A DNA stretch of 64,000 bases, taken from Ignavibacteria bacterium. GTDB lineage: Bacteria; Bacteroidota; Ignavibacteria; Tepidaquicellales; OLB5. Positions 2,368-14,074 of the stretch are shown piece by piece. A program made the translations under genes and the position numbers. Location of the stretch: positions 1 to 64,000 of the forward strand of contig JAUQWS010000122.1 in the NCBI GenBank assembly GCA_030835025.1. Direction: 5' to 3'. Each line of letters starts with the position of its first letter. Within the stretch, counting starts at the first letter, position 1. The notes under the pieces are model-generated. The model was not told the DNA's origin, searched no databases, and saw nothing but the letters and a program-made list of their open reading frames with translations.

Positions 2368-3738
2368 TCACGCTTTGGCAAGCTCATCGTAGAATATCGC
2401 GCTTGTCAATATACCGTTCTGGAAATTATTCAGATTCAAATGCTCATCCGGAGAGTGCGCGTTTTCATCAGGCAAACCGAATCCAAGCAGAACAGTATCA
2501 GCGTCCAGCATTTCTTTGAAGGTAAGCACTATTGGTATCGATCCGCCCTCGCGAATAAATACAGGCTCCTTACCGAATCCCTGTGCCATTGCTTTTGAGG
2601 CTGCTTTCATCCATTTGGTGTCAATCGGAGTCATTGCACCTTTGCCATGATGCAGTCCCGAGATCTTCACTTTAACAGTTTTGGGTGTTATCTTCCTGAC
2701 GAAAGCCGAGAACAATTTTTCTATTTTATCAGGGTCCTGGTTTGGTACAAGTCTCATACTGATCTTGGCAAATGCTTTTGAAGGAAGCACGGTTTTGGCT
2801 CCTTCACCCATAAATCCGCCCCAAATGCCGTTACAGTCAAGTGTGGGCCGTGCCCAGGTTCTTTCCAGTGTAGTATAGCCTTCTTCACCAAAGAGCTCTT
2901 CAACATCAAGTCCTTTGGCATATTTTTTATCACTGAACGGGAGTTTAGCAAACCCCTCCTTTTCTTCTTTATCAAGAGGCACAACGTCATCATAAAACCC
3001 ATCTATCAGGATCTTACCTTTGTCATCCTTCAGCTTCGCAATAATGTGCGCCAGTGCATTTATCGGATTATCAACTGCTCCGCCGTACTGGCCTGAGTGC
3101 AGGTCGCGGTTAGGCCCGGTCACCTCAAGCTGCATATAGCATAAACCTCTTAGTGCATAACCTATAGCGGGCACATCCTTATCATACATGGAAGTATCGG
3201 ATATAACCACAACATCACATTTCAAAAGGTCTTTATGCCCTGAAATGAAATCTCCCAAGTGAACGCTTCCAATTTCCTCTTCGCCTTCAACGATCAATTT
3301 AATATTGACCGGCAGCGATCCGTTTTTTGCCAGATGAGCTTCAAGTGCTTTCATGTGGATCATGACCTGTCCTTTATCATCTGCTGAACCGCGTGCATAG
3401 ATGTTCTCACCTCTTACTTCAGCTTCAAAAGGCGGCGATGTCCATAATTCGATCGGATCGACCGGCTGAACGTCATAATGTCCGTAAACAAGTATTGTCG
3501 GTTTATCCTTTCCTGCATTAAGCCAGTCCGCATATACTACCGGGTGACCGTCAGTCGGGTAAATTGCTACATTCTGAAGTCCTATCTTTTCGAGATGGCT
3601 TTTAATGTATTCAGCGCATTCCAGAACATCCTTTTTGTTTTCCGGATTTGTGCTGATACTGGGAAAGCTTAAGAAATGTTTAAGCTCCGTTAAATATCTA
3701 TCTTTGTTTTCCTTAATAAAATTAGTAATGTTGCTCAT
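2368..3738 (-). CDS. M20-family dipeptidase/deacylase
   Basis: ILVYGHYDVQPVDPIELWTSPPFEAEVRGENIYARGSADDKGQ; EGEEEIGS; internal start MSNITNFIKENK at 3738 preferred over 3873 because the longer ORF overlaps the TPR gene. Confidence 0.88.
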   Translation of the reverse strand: MSNITNFIKENKDRYLTELKHFLSFPSISTNPENKKDVLECAEYIKSHLEKIGLQNVAIYPTDGHPVVYADWLNAGKDKPTILVYGHYDVQPVDPIELWTSPPFEAEVRGENIYARGSADDKGQVMIHMKALEAHLAKNGSLPVNIKLIVEGEEEIGSVHLGDFISGHKDLLKCDVVVISDTSMYDKDVPAIGYALRGLCYMQLEVTGPNRDLHSGQYGGAVDNPINALAHIIAKLKDDKGKILIDGFYDDVVPLDKEEKEGFAKLPFSDKKYAKGLDVEELFGEEGYTTLERTWARPTLDCNGIWGGFMGEGAKTVLPSKAFAKISMRLVPNQDPDKIEKLFSAFVRKITPKTVKVKISGLHHGKGAMTPIDTKWMKAASKAMAQGFGKEPVFIREGGSIPIVLTFKEMLDADTVLLGFGLPDENAHSPDEHLNLNNFQNGILTSAIFYDELAKA

Positions 3739-3742
3739 TATC

Positions 3743-5221
3743 TTATTGTCCGTTCCCGCAGAATTTCTTGACCTGTTCCTGTGCAAACGAATCGGTTGGT
3801 TCAAATTCCAGGTATTTTTTGTAATCTGCGCATGCTTCTGCGTTTTTGGAAATTCCCGCGTAATTGTTTGCACGCCATAGCCAACCGGAGCTGATGTTCG
3901 GATTGAGCTCTATACTCTTTGTAAGGATCAATATTCCCTCGTTGAACTGATTCAGGTAGAAATATGAAATTCCGGCATAAACATAAGCTGCCACATTAAG
4001 AATACCGAGATCTATTGCCTTGTTCAGCTTTATGAGCGCTTCATCATATTTTTTTTCTTTAAACAATATCTTTCCGTATTCAAAATAAACGTTCTCGTCG
4101 GCTGAATCAAGCGAAACAGCTTTGTCAAGCAATTCATATGCCTTTGAATACTCTTCTTTATCTGCAGGGATCTTGGACCATTTCATATAATCTTCAGAAT
4201 TAAGGTCTTCCAGTTTTACCTTGGTGAAAAATTCCTCAGCTTTTGTGTATTCCTTTTTTTCGATGTAAACATATGCAGAATACTTGTTGGCCTCGCTGTA
4301 ATCTGGGTCCTTTGCAAGCACTTCGTTCAGAATTTCAAGTGCCTTGTCATATTCGGCTTTACCATAAAAGGATTTAGCAAGGTATGTTTTGCCGCGCGGA
4401 GAACCAGGAAGCAATTTGTCGTATCTTTCAAAAGCTTCTATGGCATCGTTGAATTTATCGAGCAGATAGAAGATAAGTCCCTTTTTAAAATATGCCGGTG
4501 CGAAATTATTATCAGCATCAGCTGATTTAATGTAATTTTCAAGGGCTATGCTGTATTTCTTCTGCTTAAATGCTATTTCACCTATTCCGTAAATAGCGGG
4601 GGCAAAGTTGGGCTTGTACTTAAGAGCGAGCTCATAATTGGATTTTGCAGGATCAAAAGCGCCTCTTGCCAGATAGGCATCACCAAGACCAACATATATG
4701 ATCGGGTTCTTATCATCAAATAGCTTTGCCTGTGTCATTGAAGCAATTGCCTTATCAACTTTTCCGTCGGCTATAAAATTTTCTGCTTCTGCCGAAAGCA
4801 CATTAATGATAGTCGATATCTCTTCCTTATCAAGATCGTCTTTTGTTTTGTTAAGCGGAAGGAACTTCTTTGATTTTTCGAACTCAGCTGCAGCATCGCT
4901 GTATTTCTTCTGCGATGTATATATTTCTCCCAGAACAGAATAAGCCTCAGGACGCTCATCATCTTTCTTAACAGCGTCCTTCAGGAATTTCATGGCATCT
5001 TTTTCGGATCCCGTATTGAAAAGTGCGATCCCGTAATATAGGTTGGCGTCATATGAATCTTTGGATACACTTTTCAAAAGGTTCAGTGCGCTTACATAAT
5101 CGCCTGATCTGACAGCCGCAATACCTTTATCAAGATTATCCTGCGCTATTATATTTGAATTCACTGCAAATGCAATGATAAGAAAAGCATAAAGTCCCCT
5201 TAATATGTATTTAGTCATCAT
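3743..5221 (-). CDS. Tetratricopeptide repeat protein, secreted/periplasmic
   Basis: Signal-like N-terminus; many TPR units (e.g. AEAYSVLGEIYTSQKKYSDAAAEFEKSKK). Confidence 0.85.
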   Translation of the reverse strand: MMTKYILRGLYAFLIIAFAVNSNIIAQDNLDKGIAAVRSGDYVSALNLLKSVSKDSYDANLYYGIALFNTGSEKDAMKFLKDAVKKDDERPEAYSVLGEIYTSQKKYSDAAAEFEKSKKFLPLNKTKDDLDKEEISTIINVLSAEAENFIADGKVDKAIASMTQAKLFDDKNPIIYVGLGDAYLARGAFDPAKSNYELALKYKPNFAPAIYGIGEIAFKQKKYSIALENYIKSADADNNFAPAYFKKGLIFYLLDKFNDAIEAFERYDKLLPGSPRGKTYLAKSFYGKAEYDKALEILNEVLAKDPDYSEANKYSAYVYIEKKEYTKAEEFFTKVKLEDLNSEDYMKWSKIPADKEEYSKAYELLDKAVSLDSADENVYFEYGKILFKEKKYDEALIKLNKAIDLGILNVAAYVYAGISYFYLNQFNEGILILTKSIELNPNISSGWLWRANNYAGISKNAEACADYKKYLEFEPTDSFAQEQVKKFCGNGQ

Positions 5222-10567: not shown

Positions 10568-11245
10568 TCATTTTGAGCCGTCTGCGAGGTTGAAAAGTAG
10601 TGTGGATATAAGCGGAGTTACAAGCGTAATCACTCCGATACCAGGCCATTTCCTGCCCTTGGCGATCAGATAAATACCCCCGGCGTCGCCGATCAGTGTA
10701 CCCAGTATCCCCAGCAGTATTTCTCCTTTGGCTCCGTTTTTTTTTGCTGCCATATTTACGCCGAATGGTGTTCCTATTGCGTGGCCGATGCTCATCATTA
10801 CCATTACAACATCAACTGTAGTTTCGTTTCCGCTTTGCGATGTATCACCAGCCGTGTGCGCAAATGAACCGAGCATCCCGCCGATAAGTCCGCCAAGTAT
10901 TCCCATTCCGCCGCCAAGAACATACTCAAATACAAGATCATCGGCTTCCCATCTGCCGTATCTCTTCTTTTTTGATTTGTTAAGAGTAAGAGCATTGTCG
11001 AATCTCGTACCGCTGCTATCTGAAGCATGCAGGTCAGTTTTGTTTTTATTGCTTAGTGAATCACCGGAAATAACTGTGCCTGTGGAATCACCTGAATTAT
11101 TTTTTCTTTCATTCAGCCATTTTTCATAAGCTGATCTTAATTTTATGCTGAGTGAATCCGTTGGGGTTTTAGTTGAATCCTGCTGGGACATAATACATGA
11201 TGTGCCCAGAAGCAGCGCGATCAATATGTATGAAATTCTGTTCAT
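10568..11245 (-). CDS. Hypothetical membrane protein with signal peptide
   Basis: Gly-rich TM segments (GGGMGILGGLIGGMLGSF). Confidence 0.65.
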   Translation of the reverse strand: MNRISYILIALLLGTSCIMSQQDSTKTPTDSLSIKLRSAYEKWLNERKNNSGDSTGTVISGDSLSNKNKTDLHASDSSGTRFDNALTLNKSKKKRYGRWEADDLVFEYVLGGGMGILGGLIGGMLGSFAHTAGDTSQSGNETTVDVVMVMMSIGHAIGTPFGVNMAAKKNGAKGEILLGILGTLIGDAGGIYLIAKGRKWPGIGVITLVTPLISTLLFNLADGSK

Positions 11246-11332
11246 GCAGCTTAATGCATTAGCAAAGTTTAAACTTTAATTATACAAAAAGCAATGAATT
11301 TTAAACATTCAAAAAAGGGTTAAAAGGAGCTG

Positions 11333-12013
11333 TCAATCACGTTTTTTGCGGCAAACCATTCTGATAAACGGAATATTTTTTAAAAGGCAGAATTCTTCCT
11401 GGTTTGTTTTTATTTTAATATCCCACTTGCTGTCATCAACATACGCAAAATCAAATCCGCCATGTTTACTGATTGCAGCCATTTGGAATTCATCCACTTC
11501 GTGAACATCTGTCATTAGATAAAGCTTCCCTGATGGTTTGAGCACGCGGTGAATTTCGGCCAGCAGTTCAACCGAAAATGCACGGCGCTTATAATGCCTT
11601 TTTTTTACCCAAGGATCGGGGAAGAAGTAATACACCTTAGATAATGAACTGCTCTTTATAAACTCAAATCCGTTGACTGCACTGTACCACAGGGCTTTTA
11701 CGTTCTTTAAACGTTCGCCCTGTATTACGCCGTCTATCCAGCTGACAGCATTTCGCCTCACTTCAAATCCGAGGTAATTGTGTTTTGAATCTTTAAGTGC
11801 AGATTCTATCAGGAATCTTCCAAGTCCGCAGCCAATATCAAGATACGACGGCGGTTTGCCGTCAGAAAAGAAGTCTGACCACTTAACGCTTTTTAATACA
11901 GGCGGGTATTCGAAATTGCTGCCTCTAAGCTGTTTCAGCGGGAAGTAGAGTATGGGATTTGCATGGTGCCTGATCCTCGGGAGCGGGTATTTAGTGTAAT
12001 CAATTGTCTTCAT
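11333..12013 (-). CDS. trmB: tRNA (guanine-N7)-methyltransferase
   Basis: YLDIGCGLGRFLIESA; YYFFPDPWVKKRHYKRR; internal start MKTIDYTKYP at 12013 likely. Confidence 0.88.
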   Translation of the reverse strand: MKTIDYTKYPLPRIRHHANPILYFPLKQLRGSNFEYPPVLKSVKWSDFFSDGKPPSYLDIGCGLGRFLIESALKDSKHNYLGFEVRRNAVSWIDGVIQGERLKNVKALWYSAVNGFEFIKSSSLSKVYYFFPDPWVKKRHYKRRAFSVELLAEIHRVLKPSGKLYLMTDVHEVDEFQMAAISKHGGFDFAYVDDSKWDIKIKTNQEEFCLLKNIPFIRMVCRKKRD

Positions 12014-12095
12014 AGCAGCCTGGCAGTAATACAAATTTAATAATAGGCTTCAACAAAAAAAGGACGCTTACGCGCCCCTGTTTAAAAACCTCACA

Positions 12096-12213
12096 GTTCC
12101 ACCTCCCCCAACCCCCTCCTTGATAAGGAGGGGACTTTTGGGCTACCGATAATCTATGTCCGCCCCTCCTTATTAAGAAGGGGCAGTTTCGGCTTCAGCC
12201 GAAACGGGGTGGT
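12096..12213. repeat. Composite palindromic repeat copy A (three hairpins)
   Basis: gttccacctcccccaaccccctccttgataaggaggggacttttgggctaccgataatctatgtccgcccctccttattaagaaggggcagtttcggcttcagccgaaacggggtggt; about a dozen differences by eye from copy B. Confidence 0.9.
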
Positions 12214-12590
12214 GTTCCACTTATTTCTACCCGCTCCTTCACTTTGCTCTCAATCCTTGATAACACATTCTTCAATTCATTAAGGATTTCATCATTGGTA
12301 AAGCGTATGAACTCGATTCCGGTAAGGGCTATATCCTCTTCTCTGTTTTTGTCATATTCAAATGCATTCTTCCTTTCATGTGATTCTCCATCGATTTCAA
12401 TCGCAAGCTTTAGTTTCGGACAATAGAAATCCACGATATAGTTACCTATACCATGCTGCCTTCTGAATTTGAAACCTAACAAATGTTTACTCTTAAGTTT
12501 TTCCCATAACAGTTTTTCCTGAAGAGTAGAGTGATTTCGGAGGAATTTCCTGGTTGGGGTTTGACTTGATCTGTTTAGTATTCTTTCCAT
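12195..12590 (-). CDS. DUF559 domain protein (Vsr/PD-(D/E)XK-like endonuclease fold)
   Basis: ATRKFLRNHSTLQEKLLWEKLKSKHLLGFKFRRQHGIGNYIVDFYCPKLKLAIEIDGESHERK...DKNREEDIALTGIEFIRFTNDEI, hallmark DUF559 sequence; C-terminus GTPPRFG* encoded by repeat copy A. Confidence 0.88.
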   Translation of the reverse strand: MERILNRSSQTPTRKFLRNHSTLQEKLLWEKLKSKHLLGFKFRRQHGIGNYIVDFYCPKLKLAIEIDGESHERKNAFEYDKNREEDIALTGIEFIRFTNDEILNELKNVLSRIESKVKERVEISGTPPRFG

Positions 12591-12596
12591 TTTGTT

Positions 12597-12715
12597 GTTC
12601 CACCTCCCCTAAATCCCCTCCTTGGTAAGGAGGGGACTTTTGGACTACCGATAATCTCTATCCGCCCCTCCTTAGTAAGGAGGAGCAGTTTCGGCTCTAG
12701 CCGAAACGGGGTGGT
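12597..12715. repeat. Composite palindromic repeat copy B
   Basis: gttccacctcccctaaatcccctccttggtaaggaggggacttttggactaccgataatctctatccgcccctccttagtaaggaggagcagtttcggctctagccgaaacggggtggt; same orientation as copy A. Confidence 0.9.
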
Positions 12716-12741
12716 CAATTAATAAATTGCAGCACATCGGT

Positions 12742-12783
12742 GTTCTACCTCCCCCAACCCCTCCTTACTAAGGAGGGGGCTTC
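12742..12783. repeat. Partial composite repeat copy C (first hairpin only)
   Basis: gttctacctcccccaacccctccttactaaggagggggcttc, matches 5' part of copies A/B. Confidence 0.75.
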
Positions 12784-12785
12784 AG

Positions 12786-13889
12786 CTACACATCTACACT
12801 CAACTGGCCTCTTTCAAGATCAAGCAGCCACTGCTTGCGCCACACGCCTCCTCCGTAGCCGCCAAGCTTTCCGTTTTTGTTCACTACTCTGTGGCACGGC
12901 AGGATAATCGCAATCCTGTTCATTCCGTTTGCTGTGCCCACAGCGCGTGATGCGCCTTTATGCCCCGCCTTTTCCGCAAGCTCAATATATGAAAGCGTTT
13001 TGCCGTACGGAATTCTGCGCAGTTCGTTCCACACTTTCTCCTGAAAATCAGTGCCGGGGTATATAAGCGGAACCCTGAACGTCTTAAGCCTGCCTGCAAA
13101 ATATTCTTTGAACTCAGCTATTGCCTGCTCAATATGTTCGTTGGTTCCGGGAACAATTGTTGAATCAAATCTCTTCCGCAGTGTTTTGATCTGGTATTCC
13201 AGCATCCTGCGGTCGGTGAATTCAACAAGGCAAACTCCTTTTGATGTTGCTCCGATAAGAAGCGGCCCGAGCGGTGACTCCATCATTGTTGTAACAACTG
13301 CATCGCTTGATCTTGATTTGCCGGGCGGCTTGCCGAATACTTTACCGAATGCTTCGCGGAAACCGCTGTGTGATTCATACCCGTTACCGAATATGACATC
13401 ATCAAGCGAACTCCCGTCTCTTATCTGTGCAAGAGCCGTACCAAGCCTGCGGGAGCGCTGGTAGGCGTGGAAGGTTATGCCGTAATTCTTCAGGAAATAT
13501 CTCCTTGCCTTTTCCGGCTGAATTCCCATTTTGCGAAGCTCACCATCGCGTAGTTTTTTACCTTCGGAGGAATCCACGGCTGCAAGAAGTTTCTTAACCC
13601 AATCGGGATGGGTGCCGGCAAGCTCCATAGGCCTGCATTTTTTGCATGCGCGGAATCCGGCGAACATTGCCTCTCTTGCTGTCGGATAAAATTTAATATT
13701 CGATTCCTTAGGCTTACGCGCAGAGCAGCTCGGGCGGCAGAAGATATTGGTGCTCTTTACAGCCACGTAAAAAATGCCGTCGTAAGATTTATCGCTTGAA
13801 TAGACGGCTCGCTTCATTTCGCCCGCGGGGGGCAGGGATTTAAGGAATCCTCTCGGCTCACCATGAAAATTACTGCTGTCAGTGCTCAT
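12786..13889 (-). CDS. ada: Bifunctional Ada: methylphosphotriester Zn domain, AraC HTH and O6-alkylguanine-DNA methyltransferase
   Basis: KSTNIFCRPSCSARKPKESNIKFYPTAREAMFAGFRACKKCRP; active site AIILPCHRVVNKNGKLGGYGGG; internal start MSTDSS at 13889. Confidence 0.9.
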   Translation of the reverse strand: MSTDSSNFHGEPRGFLKSLPPAGEMKRAVYSSDKSYDGIFYVAVKSTNIFCRPSCSARKPKESNIKFYPTAREAMFAGFRACKKCRPMELAGTHPDWVKKLLAAVDSSEGKKLRDGELRKMGIQPEKARRYFLKNYGITFHAYQRSRRLGTALAQIRDGSSLDDVIFGNGYESHSGFREAFGKVFGKPPGKSRSSDAVVTTMMESPLGPLLIGATSKGVCLVEFTDRRMLEYQIKTLRKRFDSTIVPGTNEHIEQAIAEFKEYFAGRLKTFRVPLIYPGTDFQEKVWNELRRIPYGKTLSYIELAEKAGHKGASRAVGTANGMNRIAIILPCHRVVNKNGKLGGYGGGVWRKQWLLDLERGQLSVDV

Positions 13890-14074
13890 TTTAAAGATCT
13901 CGCCCCTTTTGGGTACGGTTGCTGTATAATTTAGTGTTCTCATAACATAACAAAAATAGGATATAATGTAAATCCATTCCACCGAAAACTGAACATGTAA
14001 TCAATGAAATAAACCGCCAAGGGCGCCAAAAAATCAAATGCTGTGCCGCGAATTGAAACGAATTATTTTTCTTT

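Follow-up and report, generated by a model that had tools for sequence, protein, structure and literature searches.

What is a nuclease gene doing between two copies of a hairpin-rich repeat, and do gene and repeats belong together? The question is raised by a locus in a 64,000-nucleotide stretch of an Ignavibacteria bacterium genome (contig JAUQWS010000122.1, hereafter the window), in which a gene of DUF559, a widespread and uncharacterised nuclease family whose E. coli member is YcjD, sits between direct repeats. A preliminary description, made from the letters of the DNA alone, had pointed to a resemblance with REP elements and their RAYT transposases, an endonuclease gene taking the place of the transposase, and had suggested that repeat and gene may be, or have been, a mobile unit. 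The locus is laid out as follows.

11333–12034, minus strand: trmB, downstream neighbour of the unit (Pfam Methyltransf_4; conserved insertion context)
12096–12213, plus strand: repeat copy A, two inverted putative intrastrand-triplex motifs in a REPIN-like unit
12195–12590, minus strand: DUF559 nuclease gene, 131 aa (PF04480, E 1.3e-31; AlphaFold2 model; Foldseek)
12597–12715, plus strand: repeat copy B, 89–90% identical to A over the compared stretch, with the DUF559 ribosome-binding site at its end
12742–12782, plus strand: half copy with a single triplex motif, 88% identical to copy A, third strand 8/8
12786–13982, minus strand: ada-type methyltransferase, upstream neighbour (Pfam; the insert lies between the ada stop and the ada terminator)

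The ORF between the repeats matches the PF04480 profile with 109 bits against a curated cut-off of 20.6, and so belongs to DUF559 as first proposed. Its ribosome-binding site, GGGGAGGTGG (about 12600–12609, minus strand), is the end of repeat copy B, and its final codons (VEISGTPPRFG) run into repeat copy A; gene and repeats are thus one physical unit. The genes adjoining the element are trmB and ada, with neither a Y1 gene nor a DNA-modification methylase there, and an Rfam scan of 11000–14000 returned just a non-significant StyR-143 match, with no intron near the locus. A hairpin, GGGGCGCGTAAGCGTCC, followed by T7 at 12055–12076 (minus strand) is probably the ada terminator, parted from ada by the inserted unit.

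The two direct repeats (118–119 bp), the partial third copy and the three palindromes in each full copy were all found as first described. The remark that several of the differences between the copies fall in hairpin loops was also borne out: of the 12 bases that differ between A and B, 4 lie in the loops (8 bases in all), 2 in the stems (54), 2 in the tags (14) and 4 elsewhere (33). Folded as single-stranded DNA, copy B scored 5.9 s.d. better than shuffles. The elements within the repeats are these.

12101–12108, minus strand: third-strand tag of A1, GGGGAGGT (8/8 triads, 4-nt second loop)
12113–12133: hairpin A1, pyrimidine/purine, CCCCTCCTT-NNN-AAGGAGGGG
12163–12183: hairpin A2 (copy A, motif 2)
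12186–12205: small hairpin GTTTCGGCT..AGCCGAAAC, occupying the 22-nt second loop that separates A2 from its tag
12206–12213, plus strand: third-strand tag of A2, GGGGTGGT (7/8 triads)
12602–12609, minus strand: third-strand tag of B1, GGGGAGGT, overlapping the ribosome-binding site region (8/8 triads)
12615–12635: hairpin B1 (copy B, motif 1)
12665–12685: hairpin B2 (copy B, motif 2)
12708–12715, plus strand: third-strand tag of B2, GGGGTGGT (7/8 triads)
12747–12754: tag of the half copy
12758–12778: hairpin of the half copy

Each motif consists of a hairpin (5' arm pyrimidine, 3' arm purine) and a one-sided tag, GGGGWGGT or ACCWCCCC, and the tag GGGG[A/T]GGT is the mirror image of the purine arm of its hairpin. 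This is the layout predicted for an intrastrand triplex, in which the tag would fold back as the third strand. Three of the window motifs, with 8/8 triads and loops of 3–5 nt, obey the class II purine triplex rule (a hairpin and a mirror-image third strand, with C-G*G and T-A*A/T triads and loops of 1–6 nt); the other two have 7/8 triads and a 22-nt loop that holds a small TTTCGGCT..AGCCGAAA hairpin and exceeds the strict loop limit. Given that this loop is itself a small hairpin, the three palindromes come down to two triplex motifs, one of them with a structured loop. The ends of the unit are weakly inverted (ACCWCCCC/GGGGWGGT). Intrastrand triplex motifs, under the names TM, PIT or boxC, are present in more than 260 genomes and have been linked to genome instability, with no mobility gene reported near the E. 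coli motif TM_ECO and no mention of DUF559 or of an endonuclease (Holder et al. 2015, PMC4666352).

An AlphaFold2 model of the window protein (pLDDT 83) gave 3hrl, a Neisseria gonorrhoeae DUF559 protein, as best Foldseek match (E 4e-7), followed by the catalytic domain of I-Bth0305I (3r3p, E 5e-4), then AbaSI/PvuRts1I and, weakly, E. coli Vsr; the sequence search found 3hrl alone (E 1.7e-16). I-Bth0305I is the EDxHD homing endonuclease reportedly described by Taylor et al. in 2011. Residues E25, D54, E65, D67, H71 and D80 are all there in the window protein, E25, D54, D67, H71 and D80 are conserved in alignments A1/A3, and with the residue correspondence drawn by inspection the model has the predicted catalytic fold and residues of an EDxHD homing endonuclease. 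As modelled, the enzyme is closer to a homing endonuclease than to a transposase, and we infer that it acts as a nuclease. DUF559 has been placed in the EDxHD homing family before (PMC9403480), and YcjD in the PD-(D/E)XK superfamily (PMC1189080).

The pairing of gene and repeat recurs well beyond the window. Its own genome has four DUF559 matches, three of them free-standing, and each of these three lies within direct repeats that belong to a palindrome family of its own. A genome-wide search, which the preliminary description had called for, located the window repeat CCCCTCCTTNNNAAGGAGGGG (at most 3 mismatches) at 17 places against 0 for a reversed control, and the other two families are each nearly confined to their own DUF559 locus. 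Among 148 related genomes, mostly draft or metagenome-assembled, 97 contain DUF559, in up to 10 copies each. A direct repeat linking the left and right flanks (raw score at least 30, loci with full flanks) was detected at 35% of 77 DUF559 loci versus 2.8% of 218 other ORFs from the same 8-kb stretches, and a C/G-rich hairpin lies near 60% of the DUF559 genes versus 9% of controls (Fisher 7e-19). Such a hairpin also lies near 73% of DUF559 genes versus 14% of controls (70 with full flanks) in a pan-bacterial set of 80 named loci, which was found with a narrower alignment and is biased to window-like DUF559. These named loci come from Cyanobacteria, Chloroflexi, the candidate phyla radiation, Bacteroidetes, Proteobacteria, Nitrospirae, Acidobacteria, Planctomycetes and others. 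For virus-borne relatives (IMG/VR) the figures are 7% versus 5% of controls.

Counted by triplex motif, 59% (n = 76) and 76% (n = 71) of the free-standing DUF559 genes had one nearby in two surveys, and 24–41% had none by the criteria used; PF05635, a size-matched, small and patchy accessory family, had none at 26 genes (0/26). The nesting seen computationally in the window is in this way part of a pairing of DUF559 with triplex repeats that spans at least a dozen bacterial groups. In the open-access literature we found no paper linking DUF559 with palindromic or triplex repeats. On the Photobacterium plasmid pGJ3-1 (L418), 14 triplex motifs of two types are strung out directly downstream of DUF559 (about 2900–4500), and Sinorhizobium K101, one of six plasmid-collection records, contained no triplex motif by our search.

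The REP-like layout invites the explanation that the repeats owe their movement to a Y1 transposase of the RAYT/IS200 type, with DUF559 no more than a regulator or hitch-hiker. Y1_Tnp is indeed common in the class (120 of 148 genomes) and the layout is REP/REPIN-like, yet genomes G102, G103 and G105 have palindrome copies and no Y1_Tnp match, and G028 has 153 palindrome copies, seven DUF559 matches and no Y1_Tnp match. Spread by a RAYT is very unlikely in view of G028, and the ORFs beside the window element are trmB and ada. The REP-like layout lacking a Y1 transposase, as the preliminary description saw it, fits these genomes. The window palindrome itself occurs in 41 of the 97 genomes with DUF559 versus 4 of the 51 in which DUF559 was not detected (p 9e-6).

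From one phylum to another, repeat and nuclease diverge together. The 5' arm is pyrimidine in 293 and purine in 5 of the 403 hairpins located near DUF559 (103 and 39 for hairpins near control genes). The triad rule holds at 85% or better in 76% of 262 strict hairpins versus 4.8% with shuffled flanks, and perfectly in 67% versus 0.4%. The tag matches its own hairpin arm more closely than it does the average arm from other loci (218 of 222 cases), and from family to family arm and tag vary in step, which leaves the three-stranded register conserved but not the sequence. Among DUF559 pairs below 60% identity that span different phyla or groups, protein and repeat similarity were correlated, with rho 0.32 versus 0.08±0.04 after within-group permutation of the repeats (p at most 0.0005), and in the tree the window protein clusters with six of the DUF559 proteins from G028, whose palindrome is the same as that of the window. 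The tag of the gene-nearest motif faces the gene in 58 versus 23 cases upstream and 41 versus 26 downstream, as expected if the gene lies between whole units and not inside one.

This co-divergence bears on another account, in which the triplex repeats serve as landing pads prone to recombination, with DUF559 an accessory gene captured between them by chance. In E. coli, triplex motifs go together with rearrangement (PMC4666352), and the triad rule also holds for 64% of the hairpins close to neighbouring control ORFs, which would speak for such capture; the latter is also as expected if these hairpins are dispersed copies. Chance capture leaves it hard to see why the accessory family PF05635 should stand at 0/26, why each of three standalone DUF559 genes in one genome should have its own repeat family, and why protein and repeat should co-diverge across phyla. 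We consider a passenger role unlikely.

Sites with and without the unit were then compared between related genomes. The ada–trmB order is retained in the same genus and family, and DUF559 is absent from each of the 12 loci of the family in which both genes could be seen; at one of them, in G002, the site holds a repeat-only copy. In G006 a short ada–trmB spacer carries the same ada terminator as the window, which puts the window insert after the ada stop but ahead of that terminator. Empty sites of this kind were what the preliminary description had proposed looking for; the locus is not always occupied, and the flanking of DUF559 by repeats in related genomes far exceeds chance, so that neither of the outcomes it had named as fatal to mobility came about. 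The mobility of the repeat and DUF559 unit is supported, by comparative genomics.

Empty, repeat-only and occupied states are seen in uvrC as well, among genomes of one genus. One linker of uvrC is empty in G000, G006, G009 and G012, has in-frame repeats and no DUF559 in G002, and holds an in-frame repeat-DUF559-repeat in G005, G008 and G010; the G011 contig ends inside repeats. UvrC is 96% identical over the query between G006 and G010, and yet occupancy differs, a pattern consistent with homing into an unoccupied allele. In the window's own genome rsmG carries in frame a solo motif of about 39 bp; in relatives the same region has different palindromes in two cases and a short linker alone in 12, as if the RsmG loop were a tolerated landing site. 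The two palindromes in this loop (L154 and L155, rsmG of G007 and G001) are in frame and of different families.

Further in-frame copies of DUF559, with translated repeats on their flanks, lie in leuS, in hsdR of 4 genomes (immediately ahead of the Walker A motif), in metH, hsdM and rnhA of 2 genomes each (in rnhA at the N-terminus) and in a type ISP enzyme, with representatives confirmed by Pfam. Insertions in the same host site are monophyletic in the tree for hsdR, uvrC, metH, hsdM and rnhA, as expected of homing lineages, although vertical descent could also give this result. In one further frame (L373, G116:C325, 3132–4250, minus strand) DUF559 takes the position of an intein homing endonuclease, with TLWLTPDHRVL before it and FDLEIESAHSFITDVCVVHNC after it; the Intein_splicing match of this frame is weak (E 8e-4, below the Pfam cut-off).

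These sites also weigh on the idea that DUF559 is an immobile host repair nuclease, Vsr-like or structure-specific, with repeats that act as regulators or terminators of its gene. The DUF559 protein VsrA of Caulobacter acts in a DNA-damage response and is linked to a cytosine methyltransferase (PMC12907096), from which it follows that some members may have host roles, and the window repeat does provide the DUF559 ribosome-binding site. Under this idea one would hardly expect solo copies at a distance from every DUF559 gene, some of them in frame in rsmG and uvrC, a copy number as patchy as 0–10 per genome, or DUF559 in frame within unrelated proteins, and we judge it quite unlikely as a general account. 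A restriction or defence nuclease whose repeats mark self DNA is more improbable still: the in-frame hosts include several restriction-modification proteins (hsdR, hsdM, type ISP) and two loci have DUF559 beside AbiE-like genes, but leuS, metH, uvrC and rnhA are among the hosts as well, and the free-standing window unit adjoins trmB and ada and no DNA-modification methylase.

The two loci just mentioned (L241, 3271–5541, and L244, 3921–6054, both Geobacteraceae) hold DUF559 and two AbiE-like genes, presumably an AbiEi/AbiEii pair, within triplex boundaries downstream of mutS. They had been considered as one unit at two sites, that is, as proof of transposition, and were set aside because both follow mutS and one contig ends in repeat. 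Chance, a terminator-only role, RAYT-driven spread and a pure defence role were likewise considered and set aside; passenger and host repair roles of DUF559 are possible, each at the low probability given above.

Does the pairing extend to well-studied bacteria? In E. coli, ycjD, the DUF559 gene, lies between sapF and fabI, and K-12-type strains have CCCCTCTGGGGAGAGGGTTAGGGTGAGGGG directly downstream of it, which we read as the E. coli triplex motif TM_ECO/boxC; the strict hairpin rule misses it, and it is visible by eye and by pattern search. A sapF–ycjD–fabI query matched over at least 80% of its length in 3334 of 5426 complete genomes. Strains that lack ycjD have the eef efflux operon at the site (PMC12817139), which rules them out as clean empty sites. 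At the sapF–ycjD–fabI loci L413–L414 and L421–L422 the uncharacterised gene ycjD sits in a degenerate triplex-repeat array whose length differs between strains. The 3hrl locus of N. gonorrhoeae has triplex-type direct repeats on its flanks; downstream of the DUF559 ORF (L415) there are three tandem units of about 281 bp with two triplex motifs each. The idea can therefore be tested in a laboratory strain, E. coli K-12 having ycjD and repeats alike.

On balance, we think it fairly probable that the unit is a selfish mobile element, in which a nuclease of the Vsr/EDxHD fold spreads its cognate triplex repeats. Such an element would have two parts, a free-standing DUF559 nuclease with a homing-endonuclease-like fold and a family-specific repeat of two inverted triplex motifs, each a homopyrimidine/homopurine hairpin with a mirror-image tag. 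DUF559 would most likely recognise its own repeat family, as a hairpin or triplex in single-stranded DNA, and/or an unoccupied target, and then cut; host repair would copy the repeat, with or without the gene, to new places; and recombination between the direct repeats would delete the gene and leave repeat-only copies. The landing places would be intergenic DNA or in-frame linkers of conserved proteins. The nesting, the cognate co-divergence, the conserved triplex rule, the empty, repeat-only and full states and the in-frame insertions are computational results; recognition of folded DNA, cutting as the driver and the route into unrelated sites are what we infer. The last is the weakest point of the selfish-element proposal, since nucleases of the DUF559 fold are hydrolytic and cannot join DNA, and insertion at unrelated sites therefore needs an unexplained host step.

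Hundreds of bacterial genomes contain triplex repeats, which are linked to rearrangement, and no mobility activity was reported near the E. coli copies (PMC4666352). The results suggest DUF559 as the long-missing partner that may spread these common repeats, a concrete candidate enzyme family that is spread over many phyla and carried by 97 of the 148 related genomes. They would also offer a function for the domain, possibly as a nuclease guided by DNA shape, and a reason for its presence inside unrelated conserved proteins. A bolder reading, which we hold only tentatively and think doubtful as it stands, is that the whole family consists of pan-bacterial, structure-guided nucleases which recognise their own triplex DNA and move themselves and their repeats, even in frame into essential genes. 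If that were true, DUF559 would be the source of many triplex/boxC repeats in bacterial genomes, and the element would form a class apart from HUH, DDE and recombinase transposition as well as from intron or intein homing.

Set against known systems, the repeats have the DNA architecture of the TM/PIT/boxC motifs, of which the E. coli one lies directly downstream of ycjD, and the nuclease link is the new part. With REP/REPIN elements and their RAYT (TnpA_REP) they share short hairpins with a one-sided conserved tag in inverted pairs, an enzyme gene nested between copies, cognate specificity and dispersed non-autonomous copies. The RAYT enzyme, however, is an HUH Y1 transposase, whereas the gene nested here is DUF559, of Vsr/EDxHD fold, with no such transposase beside the repeats; the REP tag is GTAG/CGTC and here a mirror-repeat third strand, and the present units also lie in frame in protein genes. 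Palindromic repeats in frame in protein genes are also known as Rickettsia palindromic elements, which differ in sequence and for which we know of no DUF559 partner. From Vsr and Caulobacter VsrA, of the same fold superfamily and domain family as the window protein, DUF559 as found here differs in that their function is tied to cytosine methylation and not to flanking repeats. Its likeness to I-Bth0305I and other EDxHD homing endonucleases lies in the fold, in the in-frame and intein-associated positions and in the use of the same host site in several genomes; unlike them, DUF559 is not in a group I intron, stands in an intein-like setting in one frame only, has no extra DNA-binding domains and is flanked by cognate triplex repeats.
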